Positions 1 to 23,167 of a DNA stretch of 29,293 nt are shown piece by piece (positions within the stretch are counted from its first letter, which is position 1; every line of letters begins with the position of its first letter). Position numbers and translations under genes: made by a program. This stretch comes from a virus, in IMG/VR virus record IMGVR_UViG_3300030098_001867, positions 1 to 29,293 of that record, one strand, 5' to 3'. The notes below the pieces were generated by a model that worked only from the letters and a program-made list of their open reading frames with translations, was not told the origin of the DNA and ran no database searches.

Positions 1-61
1 TAATTTAGAAATAGACACGCCGTTTTTTGACATAGAATACCAAGGAAAATCAGATGCCTAA
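1..61 (+). CDS. C-terminal end of an upstream plus-strand gene (partial)
   Basis: The frame beginning at base 2 is open from the window edge to a TAA at 59-61 and reads NLEIDTPFFDIEYQGKSDA. The next gene starts with ATG at 54, so the two overlap by 8 bases, the same kind of overlap seen throughout the plus-strand block. This fits the tail end of another late gene. Only 19 residues are visible, too few to name a family. The other two plus frames have stops in this stretch. Confidence 0.55.
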   Translation, partial: NLEIDTPFFDIEYQGKSDA

Positions 62-2241: not shown

Positions 2242-2414
2242 TGTTACAAGGTAAAAAAACATATATGACGGCAGTCGGAGGTATTCTCGCGGCTGTAGGT
2301 GCTTATTTCTCAGGAGAGATGGAAATGGGTGTGATGATTAATGTGGTTATCACCTCGTTGCTTGCAGTCTTCTTGAGGAAAGGCGTGAAGAGCGATACCA
2401 ATGGGGGTAGTTAA
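2241..2414 (+). CDS. Small two-pass membrane protein, holin-like (57 aa)
   Basis: The frame begins MLQGKKTYMTAVGGILAAVG, has a second hydrophobic stretch (about residues 30-45, GVMINVVITSLLAVFL) and ends RKGVKSDTNGGS. A short basic N-terminus, two membrane helices separated by an acidic loop (SGEMEM) and a basic tail give the hairpin topology of class II holins. MLxGKKTY openings are common in small membrane proteins near phage lysis genes; that is family knowledge recalled, not searched. The ATG overlaps the previous TGA by one base, with GAAAGAAG just upstream as a ribosome binding site. With the preceding gene it could form a holin/antiholin pair. Confidence 0.65.
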   Translation: MLQGKKTYMTAVGGILAAVGAYFSGEMEMGVMINVVITSLLAVFLRKGVKSDTNGGS

Positions 2415-2682
2415 ACTACTTGCAGCGTTGTTTAAGGCCATACCGTCGTTGGAACGGTTGGTCTACAAACTTGCAGATGCACTTAAGGAAGCCAACGCAA
2501 AGAACCGGCTTGAAGACAAGCTGGGTCATATTGATGCTCTTATTGATGGTGAGCGGGTGCAGCACACCACGGTTGGAGGGAGTGAAGGAACTGGCAAGTC
2601 ACCCAGAGTTCCAAAAAGCAAAGGAAGCGGCTCCAGAGTTCACAAGGGCCGCACTAAAAAAGGTGGCAAGACTGGAGTATGA
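2401..2682 (+). CDS. Small amphipathic protein overlapping a lipoprotein gene; possible inner-membrane lysis partner
   Basis: This 93-residue frame begins MGVVKLLAALFKAIPSLERL, a short hydrophobic/amphipathic segment, followed by a charged helical region (about residues 20-52, ADALKEANAKNRLEDKLGHI) and a Gly/Ser/Lys low-complexity tail. The tail lies where another frame encodes a lipoprotein, so its composition may be forced by that frame. It overlaps the preceding holin-like gene by 14 bases and the next gene by ATGA. In phages an Rz-like inner-membrane spanin often encloses or overlaps an Rz1-like lipoprotein, which this arrangement mimics; however, the N-terminal segment is short for a transmembrane helix, so the spanin reading is tentative. 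Confidence 0.55.
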   Translation: MGVVKLLAALFKAIPSLERLVYKLADALKEANAKNRLEDKLGHIDALIDGERVQHTTVGGSEGTGKSPRVPKSKGSGSRVHKGRTKKGGKTGV

Positions 2683-2698
2683 AATTGAGCGCAGATGA
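2510..2698 (+). CDS. Outer-membrane lipoprotein, Rz1-like o-spanin candidate, TTG start
   Basis: Started at TTG 2510-2512, the frame encodes 62 residues opening MKTSWVILMLLLMVSGC: Lys at position 2, a hydrophobic core and a lipobox (VSGC) with Cys17 followed by Ser-Thr-Pro. This is a textbook signal peptidase II site; Ser at +2 favours outer-membrane sorting in enterobacterial rules. The mature part is about 46 residues, helical and charged (KELASHPEFQKAKEAAPEF...). The gene is read in a different frame across the end of the 2401-2682 gene, and runs past it into the next gene. The ATG at 2534 would leave no basic n-region, so TTG is preferred although its ribosome binding site is poor. Function in outer-membrane disruption at lysis is inferred from type and position. 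Confidence 0.6.
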   Translation: MKTSWVILMLLLMVSGCSTPRLEGVKELASHPEFQKAKEAAPEFTRAALKKVARLEYEIERR

Positions 2699-2882: not shown

Positions 2883-3929
2883 ATGAGTGCCGAGTATATT
2901 ATAGACAGGTTTGGTCGCAAGGTTGGCCTTAACGCAGGTGATGACAACCAGCGTTATATCATTCTCGATTTTCTTAACGAGGCAATGCAGTCCATCTATG
3001 AGCAGGTGGATATTCCCGGTTCGTTGGTTGAGGAGGAATTCTACGTTGCCGGTAAACAACGGATTGCGTTGAGTCGTGATGTTCATGCAATTCGTGCCAT
3101 GCGCGAGAAGGAGTCAAAGCTCACATGGAGTATTAACAACATGCTGTCGGAGTATAACCAGAACAACTGGCGAAGTGACAGTCGTTGCTGGCGTGTTGTT
3201 GGTTATGAACCACTCAAGAAATCCCTAACATCAACGACAACAGGTACAAGGGGATCAACTGCAACAGGCTTGACGTTGCTTGCTTATGCAAATATTGCAG
3301 CAACAGAAAAGTTTGCCATTACATTTGAAACATCTACATCAGATCGACAGACTGTTACGATAACTCCCGGCGCACACTCAGGGTCGTCACCAGATTCAAC
3401 TGCTATAACATTGGCAACGCAGCATACAATATCTGGTATTACAAGTTTTAGGCGATACGACACGGACAACGAAAGATACGGAAATCACGCAGAAGATAGT
3501 GGTGGCTTGGTCAAGTTGGTTGGGACATCTGATAATACAGTTGTTTATTCAGAAATAGCACATGACCAGACAGAAGCTCGTTACTTGATTGTGGACATCT
3601 CCGAGTTTCCGTGGGATGACACGGTTGCACAAGATGACTCACACACTCTGCAGGTTCTGTACAAGAAGAAGTTGAAGTACATCAAGAGCGACAATGATCC
3701 ATTTCCGCTTTACGGATTTGAGAACATTGTGATGCACAAGATGATGCAGTTGTTCTTGGAGGAGCAGGGCAAGATACAAGAGTCAGTGGTTTATGACGGC
3801 AAAGTGACTCGTGATTTGGGTCGTAAAATTGCTGATTTGGAGCGGGGTCAAAAACGCATGATGCAATTTGGCAGACATCCGCATGACAATATAACCTTGT
3901 CAAGACGTTGGCATTATCATCGTGGCTGA
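2883..3929 (+). CDS. Putative head-tail adaptor / tail tubular A-like structural protein
   Basis: This 348-residue protein has a helical N-terminus (YIILDFLNEAMQSIYEQVDI, about residues 25-45), a central Ser/Thr/Gly-rich beta region (about 115-245) and a C-terminal helical section (about 270-340, FENIVMHKMMQLFLEEQGKI). Helical ends flanking a beta insert is the plan of T7 gp11 / P22 gp4-type adaptors, which join portal to tail. Family assignment rests on layout, size and position just before a large beta-rich protein; T7 gp11 is shorter, and the beta insert would account for the difference. Its stop overlaps the next gene by 8 bases. Confidence 0.55.
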   Translation: MSAEYIIDRFGRKVGLNAGDDNQRYIILDFLNEAMQSIYEQVDIPGSLVEEEFYVAGKQRIALSRDVHAIRAMREKESKLTWSINNMLSEYNQNNWRSDSRCWRVVGYEPLKKSLTSTTTGTRGSTATGLTLLAYANIAATEKFAITFETSTSDRQTVTITPGAHSGSSPDSTAITLATQHTISGITSFRRYDTDNERYGNHAEDSGGLVKLVGTSDNTVVYSEIAHDQTEARYLIVDISEFPWDDTVAQDDSHTLQVLYKKKLKYIKSDNDPFPLYGFENIVMHKMMQLFLEEQGKIQESVVYDGKVTRDLGRKIADLERGQKRMMQFGRHPHDNITLSRRWHYHRG

Positions 3930-7156: not shown

Positions 7157-8032
7157 ATGTCTAGCTTTTTTGACGTAGCACAAAGAAGGCGACAAGCCAA
7201 AGAATGGGCTGAGAAATTTCGTGAGGGCGCATCTCCAGATGAACTGGAGTACTTTGATCGCTTTTATCAAGAGCCATCGGCCAGCCCAATCATGCAACGT
7301 GGTGCGCTTGAAGGAGAGTTGGATGCTGTTGATGCAATTCAGCGACAGCTTATGGCGCGAGGCATGAATGCTTTGCAAGCTAAAGACGCAGCAGAGCGAG
7401 CCGCAGCTGAACGAGAAGCCTCGTTAGCGAGAGATGCAGAGAGTATTGCCACACAATATGGTCCCGGTGGTATTTACGGAACAGGTGAGGGAAGTTTTGC
7501 AGATTACCAGCAAGATTTAAGACGAGATCCAAGTGCTGCTGGTTGGGGTATTCATCCTGACGATAGAGATGTCGGCGGTTTATCACTTGATGAGTGGGCT
7601 AGACAACGAGCTATGGCGCAACAAATGGCTGGCAATGTTTCTGCTGAATCAAAAGCACGTTATGAGGAGCAAACAGTTGATGATCGTATTGATATGATTC
7701 AGCAACAAGCTGCCGCACTTGAAGGAGAACTTGAGGCTAAAGGAGTAAGCAATGAAGTAACAACCAACTTTATGACTGAAATAGGTAGGTTACTTAATCT
7801 CTCAATACAAGATCCAAATAATTCACAAACCTACATAAAACAAGCACAAGATTTACACAGCGTTATTAAGGCACAATCTGGCAATACAGGTTTTTCATCT
7901 TACGGTTTAGAAGGTTTTATAGATGATGAGACAACCCGATCTCGCGCTCAAGGCGCAACTGTTGGTAGTGAAGGTGGTCAGCAACTTATTGCTCCAAGAC
8001 AGAGTCACGTTGAAGGTGAATATCGTCCATGA
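7157..8032 (+). CDS. Putative internal virion / ejection protein (291 aa)
   Basis: An Ala/Glu/Gln-rich, mostly helical protein; residues 50-95 (DAIQRQLMARGMNALQAKDA...) and 170-200 (DDRIDMIQQQAAALEGELEA) look like long helices or coiled coils. AGAGG lies six bases before its ATG, one of the better ribosome binding sites of the block. Its stop is fused to the start of the 2045-residue gene by ATGA, implying coordinated amounts. Together with the preceding and following genes it forms the three-protein set expected for podovirus ejection machinery; that role is inferred from size order and composition, not from recognised homology. Confidence 0.55.
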   Translation: MSSFFDVAQRRRQAKEWAEKFREGASPDELEYFDRFYQEPSASPIMQRGALEGELDAVDAIQRQLMARGMNALQAKDAAERAAAEREASLARDAESIATQYGPGGIYGTGEGSFADYQQDLRRDPSAAGWGIHPDDRDVGGLSLDEWARQRAMAQQMAGNVSAESKARYEEQTVDDRIDMIQQQAAALEGELEAKGVSNEVTTNFMTEIGRLLNLSIQDPNNSQTYIKQAQDLHSVIKAQSGNTGFSSYGLEGFIDDETTRSRAQGATVGSEGGQQLIAPRQSHVEGEYRP

Positions 8033-11000
8033 CCCTTGAAGAAAAGAAGGAAAAATTTCGCAGAAAGCATGGATTACCTGCCGATTATCCTGTTTACACT
8101 CCAGAAGAGTACGAAGCTCAACAGATAGCTGAACAAACAAGCTCACTTGGCGCAGCATGGCAAGGAGCCAAGACAAATATAATACCGGGAGCAGGTGCGT
8201 TACTTGGGTTAAAGGGTGCTTTAACTGGCTTATCTAAACTTCCACTTCCCGGTTTACCCGGGAAAGCAATTAAAGGTGTTGGTGCTGTAGGCGCAGCCTT
8301 GATTGGTGATGTTGTCACACGCGAAGGTCAGGAAGCTGTACTTGACCTGACAAGAACTGAGGATGAGAAACAAGCTGCCCAGCTAAAACACCAAGAATTA
8401 AGACGACAACATCCCACTGCATACACAGCCGGTGAGGTTGTTGGCAGTGCGTTGGGTGGTGGCGTTGGTCCATCAACCAGAACATTAACTGGTCTTGGTG
8501 AAATTGTTAAAACTGCCGGTCGAGGTAAGGTAAATAAAGAGGTTGCCGATTTTGTCACACAAAATGTAGGTGTTGGGGCCGGGATGGGTCTTGCATTTGA
8601 AGGTGGCCGACAAATTGCCGAGGGTGAATTTCTTCCCGGTGCATTAGTTGCATCCACTGTTGGTGGTGCTTTATTTACCAAGCCCGTGTTGCATGGCAAG
8701 AAAGTCTTGGGGCAACAGATAGAGCCGGTTACGGAGGCAGCTCAAGCAGATGAAACTCGCAAGATGGATTTTGTTGAGGTGACGCCTAAAACAGAAGCGG
8801 GATTCTCTGGTCCGATAGCCGTTGAGAGGCAAGATCCAGCTGTCTTAAAATTTGAAGCTGACTTAACGCCGCAACAACAACAGGAATTAATTGATGCGTA
8901 CCAAAAGTCTCATCAAATCAAAGAGAAGGGTGACGCAGATGCAAAGAAGGCCGCAGAGAAATCCATTGAGCCTGACACGGAAGCAAGTTCAGAAGAGTTG
9001 GCCACGGAGTTACACCGAACTGATCCCAAGATTAAGGAGGCATTAAGCAAGAAGAAGCTAGATACACCAATCAAAGAGTCAGTACTGAAGGAGGGTAAAG
9101 CCAAGATAGACAAGATGGTTGATGATTTGCCCGAAGCCAAGCTGACCAGTTTGCAAAAGCAAATGCGATTGGGTGCGGCAACTGATTATATCAAGGAACT
9201 TGGTATCACGCCTCAAGATATAAAAGCTGAACTTAAGAAGAAGATTGCCGCCAATCTTGGCGACATGTATGAGTCAGTAAAAAATCTTGCAGCTAGGCGA
9301 AATGTTTCCCTGCGAGTCGCAACAGATGAGCTTGTAACAAAAGAAGGCAATCGTATCTTGGGCTTTGCTCCAAGAAAAGGTCGTGAGGTTATTCTCAGTC
9401 TTCACGACATGAATCCAGAAACACCCTTTCACGAACTTGCACATGTGTTTATTCGTGACTTGGTTGGTTCATCCAACAAAGTTGAGAGTGAGCGAGCAAT
9501 AAAATGGCTTAAGGATCTATACGCAGATCATCCAGAAATAAAATTAAGAAAGCCGACAAAGACAGAATCGGGTGAGGCATTTACTGAAAGCCAAAAGAAT
9601 CGAGTTCTTGAATTATTTGCACAAGAAACTGGTGAACGACTCTTGCTTCGGATGCGGAATTTACCAAAGGGTAAGTTTGCGAAGATGCGTCGGTGGTATG
9701 AGGATGTACAAAGGACTGCTAGAGTTAAGAGTCGTGAAAAAGGTGATTCATCTGCGCGATACAGTCCAGCCGCGAAGACTGAGCTTCTTGATTATATAGC
9801 ACAACGGATGGAGATTGACAGGAATCCCCTGACTGATGTGGATATAAACACACATGAAGGCACAAAGCTGGATGCTTACGTTAAGGCAAAGCAGGGATTG
9901 GAATTTGATCTTCAACTTGCTCCCGATGAAAGCTCCAAGTCTACACTTGTTGTTGATGGAGTTAAGTACACATCAACAGCAAATGCATACGCGATACCAA
10001 AGGAGGTTGCTGAGATATTCAATATTCCAGACATGCCAAAAGGTTTTGCAAAGAAGTATGCTGACAATATAAACAAGCTGAAGGCAGGTGTGGTAAACAG
10101 GACAGAGTATACTGGCGACCTTGAGTACCTTGATTCATTTAATTTTGCTGAGTTGCCTGACTATCCAAAGAACTACAAAAAGATGATGAAGGGTCTGCAA
10201 CAGCGTAACACAGGTGCGCTTAAGCAGATATTCAAGATGTTTGAGGATGAGCAGGTTGATATTATCCTTGAGACAAGTCAGCCAGATCTTCCCACGGGAG
10301 CGCATAGTAAAAATGAAATACGCATAAACGTACCAACTGTAGACAACAGCTTTGACATGGTCTTGGCTCAACACATGTTGAATCGGCACTTGGCCAACAA
10401 CAAGGATATGATGAACGACCTGACAGGCTTGTGGGGTCGAATGTTGAAGACAGAGAGATGGTCGCATGATTTTGAGCCGGAGATGGTCACAAGGTTTGTG
10501 GAATTTGCGGCTCGTAATGATTTGCCAGAAGAACTTCAAGCCGTTATTGCCAAGTATTATAACGAGCTTGATATTGCGAACATCAATTTCTCACAAAGGT
10601 TCGGTAACAAGAACGAGTCGATGCTGAGAAATTATGAACTATATAGCAATCGAATGTTGGGACAAGGCAATGCTTTGCACGGTGCATTACGAAACTTGCC
10701 TGACGATCTTCGCATGAAGTTTGCCAACACGATGATTATAAGGAATCGTTGGGGAACACCTGAAGAATTCTTGCGTGAGTTTGATGCAATGATGGACACG
10801 ATTGGTCTTACTGGATCGCGTGTTCGTGAAGATTTCTATTCCATAACAAGATCGCCACAGCACATCATGCAGAGTGCTATGGAAAAGGGAACCTATGACG
10901 TTCTTGATGGGATAAGTACGTTGTCGAAGACTGTTAATGAAGCGCAGACAGCTACATTGCCGGGATTTCCATTAGAAGATCCAACAAACAGAATTAGGAA

Positions 11001-14000
11001 ATACTGGGAAGCTCGCAAAATACCTGAGTCTGAATCCATGTTTGCTCGTATGCCAGCCTTGGATGCGATGACTCAACTTGCAGAGAACGCAACAGGCATT
11101 AAGGGTCTAAAGAATGTCTTTGAACGTGTGCAGTCCACGCCGGTCCCGCCGAGGTCAAATCGTGAGGTTGATTTTAGTCTTGGTGAAGTTATAGCAGAGG
11201 AGACAGGCCGCACAGATGCCTTGTTAAAAGGCATCAAACCTTCCAGCAAGAAGGTTACTCCCACTGTTGTGGATGATCGAACAAAGAAAGAACGTGAGGT
11301 GAGGTTCAAGACTTTACCTGACCCAAAACTTCGTGAGCCACTAACATGGAAACCATTTCAACGTGCATTGCGTGGGATGCGACCAATCGTTGATCGCGTT
11401 CGTGAACTTGGTTTAACCAAGTCATCCAAAGAGTTGGCACACTACATAGCTGATAAACTTAACGCTACAACCAAGGATGAAAACCTGTTGCGTGGTCAGT
11501 TCTTGGAGAAGCTGATGCTTGCGTTTAGTGAAGTTAAACTCTCACCGGCAGAGCTTAACACTCTTGGCGACTTTCAACTGGACAGGTGGCGTTCAAAGAT
11601 GGGCCTGCAAAAGAACATCGACGAGGATCTGTTGAAGGAATATTTAAACAATCCACGGTTGCGATATTTTGATCGCATGATGGAGAATATTTACAGAGAC
11701 ACGCGACAATACCAGAATGACATTGGTATGTTGGTTGAAACTTTTCGTAATGGCACAAGAACCTTGGGGCCGGGTAAATACACAGCGGAGTATACACCAG
11801 AAATTATTAACCAAGAAGTTCGTCGTGTCTTGATGAAGGTTCCAGACGAGTCACCAGAGCATCAAGCGTTGAAGAAAGAGGCTGTCGATTATTGGATGTC
11901 GATTGCCAAGAAGACTGACAAGGATGAACTGAAGACAGCGTTGTCTGACGTTGATCCAGAGGGGGCTGATCTTGGTAATGAGTCTGTGCTTCGCGGGAAG
12001 TTTGAAGTCATGTTTGACAACATGGCACACAGCCTTAAGGCAACACAACACACGCTTGGTTCACAAAAGTATAAGGCGTTGCGTGTGGCTACGGGTCGAT
12101 TTGGTATACCAAAGAATTGGGTTGAACGTAATGCCATGCAACGGTTGACCCGATATGTTGTGCGGTTTACCAAGGATGCAGCATTCTTTAAAAACATTGA
12201 GGGCGATGAGAAGTCTCGGAAGATCTTGGGTATCCCGGATCAACTGGGGAATTATTCTGATCCAGACATTCCGGGTCTTGAGAAGGGTGGGCCATTCAAT
12301 TTAAAGAATGTTGTCGATGGAAAGATTGTAGATAATCAGAAAGGCAAGACATACAACAAGGATGTGATGGGTAGTGATGACTCCTTGGATGCCTTTATGC
12401 AGGGCTACATTGGTTTCTATGAGAGTTGGGATTTGTGGTCGCGTAACTTTAACCGAATGGTTACATCAAGCTGGCTGGGTCTTGGTGCAGGTCTTCGTGA
12501 TTACGTCTCCTCTTATCTGTTTGCCTTGCCTTACATGCGAACACAGGATTTGCCATTACTTGTTACTCACATGTTTGAATGGCGTGATGCCTTCGTTAAG
12601 AGTCATACGATGGGTGTAAACAAGACTGCGCTTAATAACCTTGAGTGGACTCAGCAAAGTGTTAGTGAAGTTACTGACGGGATCAACAAGGCGGCAGATG
12701 CGATGCTTGTCATAGGTGGTCGATCTGTCTTGGAACGAAACACCAGAGCATTGCAATTCTCGCTGGGTCGCCAGTTGACAAGACAGGCACTACGTCAAGG
12801 ACTGCGATTAACTGAATATGTAGGTATTGGTGACTGGACAGCCAACAGGTTGTTAAGAAACTTGGATCAGCAGATGGGCGGTGGTGCAAACTATCGTGGC
12901 AGACGAGTCAGTTTGTCGGAGTGGGTGGGAAGTAAAGAGCCTATTCCGCAAGAGGTGTTGGACCAAGCGGGTGCTGCGTGGGTTGAAATAAATCAAGGCA
13001 CTTATGATATGCGTGGTCTACCCAAGTTCACGCAACGAGGTGTTCCCAGCATGTTTACCTCGCTTGCACGTTGGTCGATAGAGAAATCAGACAGGATGGC
13101 CAAGGACATCTGGCTTCCATTAAGAACACAGGGTGATTTTCTACCGCTACTTAAGGCAACATTTGGCGCAATTCTTGGCGGTGAAGCAATCAAGTACTTG
13201 AGTGAGGAGATTGCAAACAAGGTTCAGAGTGATCCGAAGTTGATTGAAGCAATTCAAATGGACAACCCGAAGGAGCAGTTGCAAGCAATTATAAACTCTG
13301 TTGCGTTTGCTGGTTACTTTGGTCTTCAGTCAGCAGTGTTGCATGATGTTGTGAGGGCAAGTCGTCGTGGAGTTCTTGAGGGGATTCCCGGCGGCCTGAC
13401 GTTCCCTGCCGCTGATGCTGCCACAACAATAGCCAGAGATTTCTTTCACTTGATGAGTTCTGGTTCAGCATTTGATGAAGGTTTTGCCAAGGCTTGGTTG
13501 AAATTTTTTAGAAGTACAGTGATGGGTATTAACCAGACTTTGCGCTACTCTTTGCAGCACCTTACATTGTCTGATGACATGTCAGACTTTAACGCAAGAG
13601 CGCAGCTTCGGAAGTTTAGAACGCTGGAGAAAGGCGAACTTGATCCCGGTGTACCAGCTGGAATTAGTAATCCTTACGACTGGCCAGCCAGAATTGCGTT
13701 TAAACGAGCAAAAAGTGTTGCCGAGGCTCGCAGATTATTACCAGCAGCAGTCAAGGAAGCTGCTGAGAAAGCGATGTCGGTGCGACCTGACAATCCAGTA
13801 GAGCAGTCAAGGTTGTTTAAACAATATTGGCAAGCACTCTATGCAAGAACTGGTCAAGGCTTTACGCCAGCATTACCTTCAACCAGAGAAGAGTCTAGGC
13901 ATCTGGAAAGAATGAGATACTTGGGACTCAAGGCTTCACCGAAAGTTGAGTCAAAGATGCATAGAAAAAAACCTGCGTTTCTTGGTTCAGAAACTTTTGG

Positions 14001-14166
14001 TCAGAAACTTGTAGATTTTGCAGGTGGCGAAATGATGCCGGGAACAGTCATCACGAAAGATCAAGCGAAGTCTGTCATGGCACAAGAGAAGCAGTTTTTT
14101 CACATGACCGAGGCTGCAAGAGATATGGTATTACGCTATATTGGATCTCGTGGTAGATCATTATAG
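8029..14166 (+). CDS. Giant virion/ejection protein with an HELAH zinc-metallopeptidase motif (2045 aa)
   Basis: The first 220 residues are Gly/Ala-rich and hydrophobic (ALLGLKGALTGLSKLPLPGL, about 49-68), suggesting membrane interaction. Residues 468-472 are HELAH, preceded by a beta-strand (EVILSL) and followed by a candidate third ligand, E528 or E533 in ELFAQE. This is the zincin signature seen in MuF-linked and 'large polyvalent protein' peptidases of phages. Long helical regions follow; around residues 1455-1505 an aromatic/hydrophobic stretch (GLGAGLRDYVSSYLFALPYM) resembles C-terminal polyvalent-protein domains. It is the last late gene, after two smaller ejection-type proteins, as T7 gp16 or N4 giant proteins are. 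Likely packaged and delivered into the host; peptidase target unknown. No lysozyme motif was seen. Confidence 0.7.
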   Translation: MTLEEKKEKFRRKHGLPADYPVYTPEEYEAQQIAEQTSSLGAAWQGAKTNIIPGAGALLGLKGALTGLSKLPLPGLPGKAIKGVGAVGAALIGDVVTREGQEAVLDLTRTEDEKQAAQLKHQELRRQHPTAYTAGEVVGSALGGGVGPSTRTLTGLGEIVKTAGRGKVNKEVADFVTQNVGVGAGMGLAFEGGRQIAEGEFLPGALVASTVGGALFTKPVLHGKKVLGQQIEPVTEAAQADETRKMDFVEVTPKTEAGFSGPIAVERQDPAVLKFEADLTPQQQQELIDAYQKSHQIKEKGDADAKKAAEKSIEPDTEASSEELATELHRTDPKIKEALSKKKLDTPIKESVLKEGKAKIDKMVDDLPEAKLTSLQKQMRLGAATDYIKELGITPQDIKAELKKKIAANLGDMYESVKNLAARRNVSLRVATDELVTKEGNRILGFAPRKGREVILSLHDMNPETPFHELAHVFIRDLVGSSNKVESERAIKWLKDLYADHPEIKLRKPTKTESGEAFTESQKNRVLELFAQETGERLLLRMRNLPKGKFAKMRRWYEDVQRTARVKSREKGDSSARYSPAAKTELLDYIAQRMEIDRNPLTDVDINTHEGTKLDAYVKAKQGLEFDLQLAPDESSKSTLVVDGVKYTSTANAYAIPKEVAEIFNIPDMPKGFAKKYADNINKLKAGVVNRTEYTGDLEYLDSFNFAELPDYPKNYKKMMKGLQQRNTGALKQIFKMFEDEQVDIILETSQPDLPTGAHSKNEIRINVPTVDNSFDMVLAQHMLNRHLANNKDMMNDLTGLWGRMLKTERWSHDFEPEMVTRFVEFAARNDLPEELQAVIAKYYNELDIANINFSQRFGNKNESMLRNYELYSNRMLGQGNALHGALRNLPDDLRMKFANTMIIRNRWGTPEEFLREFDAMMDTIGLTGSRVREDFYSITRSPQHIMQSAMEKGTYDVLDGISTLSKTVNEAQTATLPGFPLEDPTNRIRKYWEARKIPESESMFARMPALDAMTQLAENATGIKGLKNVFERVQSTPVPPRSNREVDFSLGEVIAEETGRTDALLKGIKPSSKKVTPTVVDDRTKKEREVRFKTLPDPKLREPLTWKPFQRALRGMRPIVDRVRELGLTKSSKELAHYIADKLNATTKDENLLRGQFLEKLMLAFSEVKLSPAELNTLGDFQLDRWRSKMGLQKNIDEDLLKEYLNNPRLRYFDRMMENIYRDTRQYQNDIGMLVETFRNGTRTLGPGKYTAEYTPEIINQEVRRVLMKVPDESPEHQALKKEAVDYWMSIAKKTDKDELKTALSDVDPEGADLGNESVLRGKFEVMFDNMAHSLKATQHTLGSQKYKALRVATGRFGIPKNWVERNAMQRLTRYVVRFTKDAAFFKNIEGDEKSRKILGIPDQLGNYSDPDIPGLEKGGPFNLKNVVDGKIVDNQKGKTYNKDVMGSDDSLDAFMQGYIGFYESWDLWSRNFNRMVTSSWLGLGAGLRDYVSSYLFALPYMRTQDLPLLVTHMFEWRDAFVKSHTMGVNKTALNNLEWTQQSVSEVTDGINKAADAMLVIGGRSVLERNTRALQFSLGRQLTRQALRQGLRLTEYVGIGDWTANRLLRNLDQQMGGGANYRGRRVSLSEWVGSKEPIPQEVLDQAGAAWVEINQGTYDMRGLPKFTQRGVPSMFTSLARWSIEKSDRMAKDIWLPLRTQGDFLPLLKATFGAILGGEAIKYLSEEIANKVQSDPKLIEAIQMDNPKEQLQAIINSVAFAGYFGLQSAVLHDVVRASRRGVLEGIPGGLTFPAADAATTIARDFFHLMSSGSAFDEGFAKAWLKFFRSTVMGINQTLRYSLQHLTLSDDMSDFNARAQLRKFRTLEKGELDPGVPAGISNPYDWPARIAFKRAKSVAEARRLLPAAVKEAAEKAMSVRPDNPVEQSRLFKQYWQALYARTGQGFTPALPSTREESRHLERMRYLGLKASPKVESKMHRKKPAFLGSETFGQKLVDFAGGEMMPGTVITKDQAKSVMAQEKQFFHMTEAARDMVLRYIGSRGRSL

Positions 14167-22447: not shown

Positions 22448-23167
22448 TTAATAGTTGATTAATTCACCCAACAACTTGTACCGAGCAAGGATGCTTTGTA
22501 ATTCACGGTAGTTGCCGTAGAGTGGCGTTAGCTTCAAGATTTTCTCAGTGATTTCTTTCGGGTTATCGAAACCTTGCTTCTTGATATATAGAGCAAGGTC
22601 ATCTGGTCTATCTCGGAGTGGTGTGGTTTGGATAACAAAGACGCTGATCCTGTGGAATAGGTCGAGGCGAAAGCTGCCTTCCCTTACCATCTCACGCAAA
22701 TCCCTGTTTGTAGAACAGACAATTCGACACTTGGACTTAACCATCTTTGTTGCTCCGACTTTGCGAAACTTCTTCTCTTGTATGTACCGCAATAATTTGG
22801 GCTGTAAGGGAAGCGGTAACTCACCAATTTCATCGAGGAATAGAGTGCCATCTTCTGCATGTTGCACTAGGCCACCTGTTTCACGGGTTGCTCCCGTGAA
22901 TGAACCTTGCATGTGACCATACATAAGAGATTCAAAAAGATCTTCAGCCAGTGTGGTTGTGTTAACGGCTACAAAGTTGGAGCCGCGAGTTGTGTCTTTA
23001 CGAGTACGCTTGCCGTGTAGAATTTCAGCAAAATGCTCTTTACCCGTACCAGACTCCCCCGTCACCAAGACGGGGGAGTCGTGACATGCTAACACTTGAG
23101 CAAATCTAATTTGCTCAAGCATGTGCGGATCTTGCGTGATAAGTTTACTCATCCTTGTACTCATCAA
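22448..23167 (-). CDS. Stand-alone sigma-54 activator ATPase (NtrC/PspF-type AAA+), no receiver, no HTH
   Basis: Bacterial enhancer-binding proteins hydrolyse ATP to open promoters bound by sigma-54 RNA polymerase. This 239-residue protein contains the whole AAA+ core: Walker A GESGTGKE (37-44), the sigma-54 contact loop as GSFTGA (88-93; consensus GAFTGA), Walker B TLFLDEIGELP (108-118), sensor I CSTNRDL (151-157), arginine fingers in FRLDLFHRI (R167, R173) and sensor II GNYREL (218-223). It starts directly at the core, with no response-regulator or GAF domain, and stops 16 residues after sensor II with no helix-turn-helix. HTH-less activators that work from solution are known in Helicobacter and Chlamydia. 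A matching -24/-12 promoter lies just downstream, so it probably activates the phage's own replication genes. ATG-ATG start; the Met at residue 6 is an alternative. Confidence 0.92.
   Translation of the reverse strand: MMSTRMSKLITQDPHMLEQIRFAQVLACHDSPVLVTGESGTGKEHFAEILHGKRTRKDTTRGSNFVAVNTTTLAEDLFESLMYGHMQGSFTGATRETGGLVQHAEDGTLFLDEIGELPLPLQPKLLRYIQEKKFRKVGATKMVKSKCRIVCSTNRDLREMVREGSFRLDLFHRISVFVIQTTPLRDRPDDLALYIKKQGFDNPKEITEKILKLTPLYGNYRELQSILARYKLLGELINY

Follow-up and report, generated by a model that had tools for sequence, protein, structure and literature searches.

A lipoprotein gene conserved in the second frame of another gene is probably part of a spanin-like lysis pair in uncultivated marine phages

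A small lipoprotein gene lying in the second reading frame of another gene is conserved and constrained at the amino acid level in an IMG/VR virus record and its relatives. We analyzed the complete 29,293-base stretch of this record (hereafter, the window), in which the lipoprotein (2477-2698, plus strand) occupies the +1 frame relative to a 93-aa ORF (2401-2682, plus strand). Judged from sequence comparison and gene context, the lipoprotein is probably the outer-membrane component of a lysis pair of the spanin-like kind, with the conserved head of the 93-aa ORF as its inner-membrane-associated partner. The pair appears to belong to an uncultivated, marine phage group, in which it would most likely open the outer membrane at lysis.

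The lipoprotein frame has three candidate starts (ATG 2477, ACG 2495 and TTG 2510) and carries a VSGC lipobox whose Cys codon lies at 2558-2560. From TTG 2510 (2510-2698, plus strand), the version proposed in a sequence-only reading of this DNA, it encodes 62 aa and reads MKTSWVILMLLLMVSGC. The mature part comprises 46 residues, is charged and ends in LEYEIERR, and the hydrophobic maximum of the protein is its signal peptide. Other small plus-strand genes surround the pair: a 52-aa protein with one membrane segment (2083-2241), similar to a gene three genes upstream of the lipoprotein in locus L123; a probable holin of 58 aa with two hydrophobic segments (2238-2414, ATG 2241 being an alternative start); a 66-aa ORF with a coiled-coil-like head (2679-2879), found only in the near clade of relatives; a 42-aa ORF (2758-2886) in the +1 frame relative to the 66-aa ORF; and a probable, SU10 adaptor-like head-tail adaptor (2883-3929; PF24175 E = 0.001, under the curated cut-off), which was our synteny anchor. 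The extents given earlier for the 93-aa ORF, the end of the lipoprotein frame and the 66-aa ORF are borne out by the sequence. A simple six-frame lipobox scan of the window returned two candidates, of which one is probably spurious; by itself the motif is weak evidence, and conservation decides.

To follow the frame among relatives, we collected 36 distinct loci from IMG/VR by searching with the adaptor protein; for the upstream stretch, the window and 35 loci yielded 29 distinct rows. One locus, L001, is identical to the window over the 493 compared bases and differs from it elsewhere along the shared length. Stop codons in close relatives had been named as the observation that would speak against the gene, and none occurs: the lipoprotein frame is open in all 24 distinct near-clade relatives, of which MQRIGWKTSWATLMLLLMVSACSTPQLEGVKELSQHPQFQKAREAAPEFTRAALRKVAKLEYEIERR is a typical reading. 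Substitution patterns in both frames were compared using 574 parsimony changes placed on a tree of 25 rows (the window and these 24 relatives), with duplicates merged; L010, L011, L012/L013 and L035 were left out for their different length, and L036 lacks the region. Expected counts came from the alternative positions within the stretch at which an identical base change would have affected the other frame in an identical way. Given the 93-aa frame, the lipoprotein frame across 2510-2679 showed 60 nonsynonymous changes versus 117.4 expected (p = 0.0002) and no stops versus 6.8 expected. Constraint on this frame was weak over the signal-peptide stretch (23 versus 26.7, p = 0.013) and detectable on the window's own branch of 24 changes (15 versus 19.2, p = 0.0125). 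A second clade (14 distinct of 18 rows, 96 changes; L035 and L089 omitted because their start is cut off) gave 14 changes in the mature lipoprotein versus 33.2 expected, with a clean control (18 versus 18.0). The hidden lipoprotein of the sequence-only reading is thus a real gene, with an open frame and amino-acid constraint among relatives.

That the frame is merely a chance opening within the 93-aa gene is very improbable. Such an explanation could draw on the lipobox scan, which yields about one spurious candidate per window, and on the control, the lipoprotein frame upstream of the start (2401-2494), which is also short of stops (2 versus 8.6, p = 0.004) and slightly depleted in nonsynonymous changes (75 versus 83.6, p = 0.02). 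The latter indicates that the test is imperfectly neutral, but the effect is far smaller than that in the lipoprotein frame. A chance opening is also hard to reconcile with the strong nonsynonymous depletion in two clades, with the 93-aa frame being the unconstrained one of the two in the mature part, and with homologues in L127 and L128, where the partner gene stops short of the lipoprotein start or ends on it.

An alignment search with the lipoprotein recovered 117 relatives, 80 of which were taken further. As in o-spanins, a signal peptide II sequence and a lipobox (of the VSGC/VSAC type) are kept, and nine diverse members have in common the lipobox and a C-terminal motif, HPxF...APEFTRxAL...LEYE[IL]E. 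The lipoprotein has no C-terminal membrane helix, the mark of a unimolecular spanin of the T1 gp11 type. In the window, neither the mature lipoprotein nor the 93-aa ORF contains a cysteine besides the lipidated one; relatives in L125, L128 and L129 do carry one (EWCR). The spanin survey by Kongari et al. 2018 (PMC6139136) calls a universal role of intermolecular disulfide bonds potential. PHROG and Pfam scans of the lipoprotein and its partner returned weak matches only, the best PHROG spanin match having E = 0.017 and such matches lying mostly over the signal peptide. No cultured relative of the pair was found among 50,697 phage records: the lipoprotein frame hit nine of these, none convincingly, and queries with the adaptor, a divergent lipoprotein, the partner head and a 589-aa gene returned zero matches each.

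The sequence-only reading held that the lipoprotein signal appears only with a start at TTG 2510. This does not hold, since ATG 2477 is in frame and open, and relatives start at an ATG at the 2495 site. In the window, the frame is open upstream to 2420, a stretch including ATG 2477 (MHLRKPTQRTGLKTSWVILMLLLMVSGC, lipidated residue Cys28) and ACG 2495. All 24 near-clade rows have ATG at the 2495 site, TGG at the 2510 site and a stop at 2483-2485 (14 TGA, 10 TAA), where the window has ACG, TTG and TTA, respectively. By our reading of the codons, all three differences fall at third positions of the 93-aa frame and are silent there; together they opened the lipoprotein frame back to ATG 2477, removed the start of the relatives and created TTG 2510. 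In the second clade, all 14 rows carry ATG at both the 2477 and 2510 sites, while at the 2495 site 11 rows have ACG and 3 have ATG. Because of the conserved ATG at the homologous position, TTG 2510 stays a candidate start. The position of the Shine-Dalgarno-like sequence suits ACG 2495 best (-6.1, spacing 4), and TTG 2510 is poorly served (-0.9). In a third clade, all six rows have a CTG codon upstream of an ATG (one row) or ACG (five rows), and the Shine-Dalgarno match of the CTG is strong (-8.3, spacing 6). Taken together, the start sites of the three clades make start-site turnover and non-ATG starts plausible for the family, the window itself having three candidate starts.

The 93-aa ORF consists of a conserved head (2401-2560, ~53 codons) and a tail (2561-2682) that resembles a passive read-through extension over the lipoprotein gene. 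Its frame is strongly constrained across 2510-2560 (4 nonsynonymous changes versus 14.5 expected) and without detectable constraint across 2561-2679 (120 versus 124.7, p = 0.07; 4 stops versus 5.3). In the second clade, the partner frame over the mature lipoprotein is at expectation (49 versus 48.0), with fewer stops in the tail than expected (0 versus 3.0, p = 0.03), and the tail is missing from the partner homologues of L091 and L115, which are 55-58 aa long. The tail is best read as a passive extension that followed the loss of an earlier stop and persisted because selection acts on the underlying lipoprotein gene. For overlapped pairs, the survey (PMC6139136) describes i-spanins as diverging within the overlap and o-spanins as remaining conserved. 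We dropped the idea that the cationic tail is a disruptin-like peptide, as L010 has an acidic tail, L091 and L115 have none, and the tail sequence is unconstrained.

The lack of constraint on the tail also bears on a proposed spot at 2679-2682 where all three plus frames would be coding. All three ORFs do touch the ATGA at this site, but with the 93-aa tail unconstrained at most two frames matter there, which weakens the claim. Immediately downstream, the 66-aa frame is constrained at 2699-2757 (51 versus 78.3) and unconstrained over the 42-aa ORF (2758-2876; 131 versus 120.0), and the 42-aa frame, conditioned on the 66-aa frame, does show constraint (82 versus 99.9; stops 0 versus 4.3). A constrained head with an unconstrained tail over the next gene thus occurs twice in 480 bases. 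The 42-aa product is cationic, with four repeats of ~10 aa (AITKR or AVTAR), and its gene has an ATGA overlap with the adaptor gene; copies lie at L068 2695-2823, L077 2704-2832 and L106 1868-1996, and its length was 42 aa in the copies read, also in near relatives.

The lipoprotein and the 93-aa head are linked throughout the family. After reducing 83 loci to 65 unique pairs (L124, which is cut, and L129-L132 excluded), the head accompanied the lipoprotein in every pair, and all 65 had the gene placement of spanins (embedded, overlapped or adjacent). The survey (PMC6139136) defines embedded, overlapped and separated spanin pairs; here, 59 pairs were overlapped, 4 embedded (L082 and L084; L107 and L108) and 2 separate (L127, with another ORF between the genes, and L128, with a 4-nt overlap). 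Every one of the 63 overlapping or embedded pairs had its lipoprotein in the +1 frame. Lipoproteins of embedded members were 52% (L107) and 58% (L082) identical to that of the window. When partner heads were concatenated with mature lipoproteins to build a tree (65 rows, 113 columns), rooted by choice on the prophage group, the two sets of embedded pairs fell within different overlapped clades, with modest support (64 to 90) at several nodes. This placement suggests that embedding arose twice.

Bacterial genomes gave information on probable hosts and on gene neighborhoods. Searching 84,980 bacterial and archaeal genomes with the lipoprotein identified three relatives, all in Verrucomicrobiota assemblies, and a sample of 387 genomes, drawn from this phylum alone, yielded seven matches, six of them real on inspection, with L123 common to both search sets. 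The rejected match, L132 (E = 5.5e-4), is a segment of a long unrelated ORF. That all lipoprotein relatives in bacterial genomes (L123, L124, L125 and L127-L131) are from Verrucomicrobiota hints that this phylum may include the hosts of the uncultivated phage group. On an Opitutae contig (L125), a holin gene (PF23987 E = 4.6e-16) is followed in turn by those of the inner partner and the lipoprotein, a membrane-plus-coiled-coil gene and a tail-sheath gene. In L127 and L128, which lie in contigs of 3.6 Mb and 503 kb, a membrane-plus-coiled-coil gene again follows the pair, and a longer stretch around L127 (L133) contains a Mu-type portal ~3.2 kb downstream of the pair (PF06074 E = 1.1e-40). Two further, prophage-like loci, L123 and L124, adjoin chromosomal-type genes (DUF1501, SUI1), and each has a PDDEXK_5 endonuclease gene directly 3' of the lipoprotein (L123 767-1150, E = 2.2e-11; L124 204-593, E = 6e-12).

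A second small lipoprotein gene (CKSLPGxLEIDTPFFDIEYxG) lies 2.4 kb upstream of the pair. Its C-terminal end alone falls in the window (2-61, plus strand), where it is cut by the edge; it is complete in L001 (2057-2179; MQKVVVILLILLGTGCKSLPGNLEIDTPFFDIEYQGKSDA) and also found at L003 1652-1879, L028 1989-2144, L106 877-1113 and L114 424-576. The L003 and L106 copies overlap, in the +1 frame, a membrane-plus-coiled-coil protein of 98 aa, and the L028 copy abuts one; directly before the second lipoprotein in L001 (1674-2069) and L114 (42-437), a 131-aa protein replaces the 98-aa coiled-coil protein, that of L001 matching a mechanosensitive-channel beta-domain (PF00924 E = 2e-4). A ~105-aa protein with an apparent signal peptide precedes a two-segment membrane protein in L081 (1846-2163; no Pfam match for this copy), L082 (342-719) and L107 (651-977). 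Elsewhere in the window, a minus-strand region (22448-23167) encodes mostly a sigma-54 interaction AAA domain (PF00158 E = 1.4e-56), with a similar ORF in G001 (L121 15599-16327), and a 2045-aa ORF (8029-14166), which takes up a fifth of the window and has a 2025-aa counterpart in G001, showed no confident match in Pfam or PHROG.

The properties of the 93-aa head leave its membrane role less clear. Its predicted structure has helices at residues 2-13 and 15-56 followed by a disordered tail, and the low confidence of this AlphaFold model (mean pLDDT 55) makes it too weak for a fold search. On a dG-like membrane score, which is our own approximation, the N-terminal helix of the window's partner scores +2.13, no clear membrane helix; in one set of members the values range from -1.03 (L127) to +3.72 (L110), L115 scored +3.82 in a separate set, and references give -3.64 for lambda Rz, 0.04 for T7 18.5 and 0.52 for the Rz-like protein of Ssp-JY42. 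In most members, positive charge follows the hydrophobic stretch instead of preceding it, which speaks against an N-in/C-out topology, and the conserved part beyond this stretch is only ~40 residues. Given the marginal helix score and the charge placement, the partner may be membrane-associated, and it does not clearly follow the i-spanin topology rule. The Rz/Rz1-like arrangement with an atypical inner partner put forward by the sequence-only reading therefore stands as regards the arrangement, given frame conservation, the uniform +1 offset and the holin-adjacent distant relatives, but the membrane helix and topology expected of the partner are absent or marginal.

These features are also what could be said for a different inner partner. 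The lipoprotein would then be o-spanin-like, its true partner being another membrane protein, for example the 98-aa protein that L003 and L106 carry next to the second lipoprotein, or the product of the gene that follows the lipoprotein in prophages, and the 93-aa head would serve, for example, in holin control. Membrane-plus-coiled-coil genes do stand behind the lipoprotein in L125, L127, L128, L130 and L131. We consider this unlikely, as it leaves unexplained the linkage of head and lipoprotein in every unique pair; moreover, the window's own virus (L001) has the MscS-like 131-aa protein instead of the 98-aa one, and the comparable Mu gene product, gp25, is a releasin and not a spanin (PMC9239132).

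In relatives, the genes near the pair are of lysis type. The 58-aa protein matches a PHROG holin weakly (phrog_3428, E = 0.015), and a homologue (46.9% identity, E = 3e-5) is present in Synechococcus phage Ssp-JY42 (PP438432.1). There it is flanked on one side by an M15 endolysin (PF13539 E = 1.5e-11) and on the other by an Rz-like gene of 170 aa, in whose +1 frame a lipoprotein is embedded (the Rz/Rz1 naming is ours). A Pfam holin lies directly upstream of the pair in L125, and the window has this probable holin homologue. No endolysin was recognized among the proteins scanned in the window group, selected ORFs of G001 included, and PF13539 was absent from 10 of 10 window-group records.

Small phage lipoproteins that act on the envelope or on superinfection exist. 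For the window's lipoprotein, such a function with no role in lysis is rather improbable: a weak match to phrog_1119 (Cor superinfection exclusion; E = 0.3, residues 1-19 only) and the presence of the second lipoprotein gene, which also counts against a lysis pair, would favor it, but the strict linkage to the partner gene with a +1 overlap and the holin-type neighbors in different phage types do not fit. With the pair located behind a Pfam holin or ahead of a Mu-type portal in Verrucomicrobiota prophage relatives, a spanin-like pair is the best reading.

Compared with lambda Rz/Rz1 and T7 18.5/18.7 (embedded) and P2 LysB/LysC (overlapped), the window has the same plan of a short second-frame lipoprotein overlapping a helical, membrane-associated partner in a lysis-type neighborhood. 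Unlike in those systems, the partner is short, its membrane helix is marginal and its charge distribution unfavorable, the lipoprotein is not Pro-rich, the pair has no extra cysteines, and sequence homology was not recognized. In Mu, the spanins gp23/23.1 have the endolysin gp22 nearby, and the membrane-tethered protein gp25 comes shortly after them (PMC9239132). The Verrucomicrobiota pair resembles this in standing ahead of a membrane-plus-coiled-coil gene, with the Mu-type portal downstream in L133; however, its downstream protein has no match to DUF2730 (PF10805), and a SAR endolysin was not identified. The Ssp-JY42 cassette has a homologue of the window's probable holin beside its Rz-like gene, but the Rz-like protein is 170 aa and its lipoprotein Pro-rich, and no similarity to the window pair was noticed by eye. 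The consulted portions of the literature on spanins and uncultivated marine podoviruses, the evolution of spanin architecture, Verrucomicrobiota and TTG-start o-spanins (including PMC12596118, PMC4411677 and PMC6775973) contained no report of this pair.

In the mechanism we envisage, the lipoprotein would be lipidated and sorted to the outer membrane; after holin triggering and loss of peptidoglycan, the two proteins would meet via the conserved C-terminal helix, and the paired proteins would then disrupt or fuse the outer membrane. More tentatively, as a possibility that we do not yet favor, this may be a new spanin-like family in uncultivated phages that probably infect Verrucomicrobiota. 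A single homologous pair would then take separate, overlapped and embedded forms; overlap would have been gained neutrally by stop loss, embedding would have arisen twice, the start would drift among ATG, TTG, CTG and possibly ACG, and the inner partner would in essence be an amphipathic protein of 55-65 residues outside the usual i-spanin topology.

The lipoprotein illustrates why gene callers overlook such genes, and the pair points to the lysis gene set of a phage group with no close cultured relative in the collection searched. The survey (PMC6139136) reports no spanin family that mixes embedded with overlapped or separated members, and describes a hypothetical and more complex path to embedding in which a stop codon is lost and the gene is then extended. 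One homologous pair in all three arrangements, with an unconstrained tail, would contrast with that picture, our family being grouped by profile homology and tblastn, unlike the clustering used there. The three arrangements together with the unconstrained extension make the stop-loss route to embedding testable.
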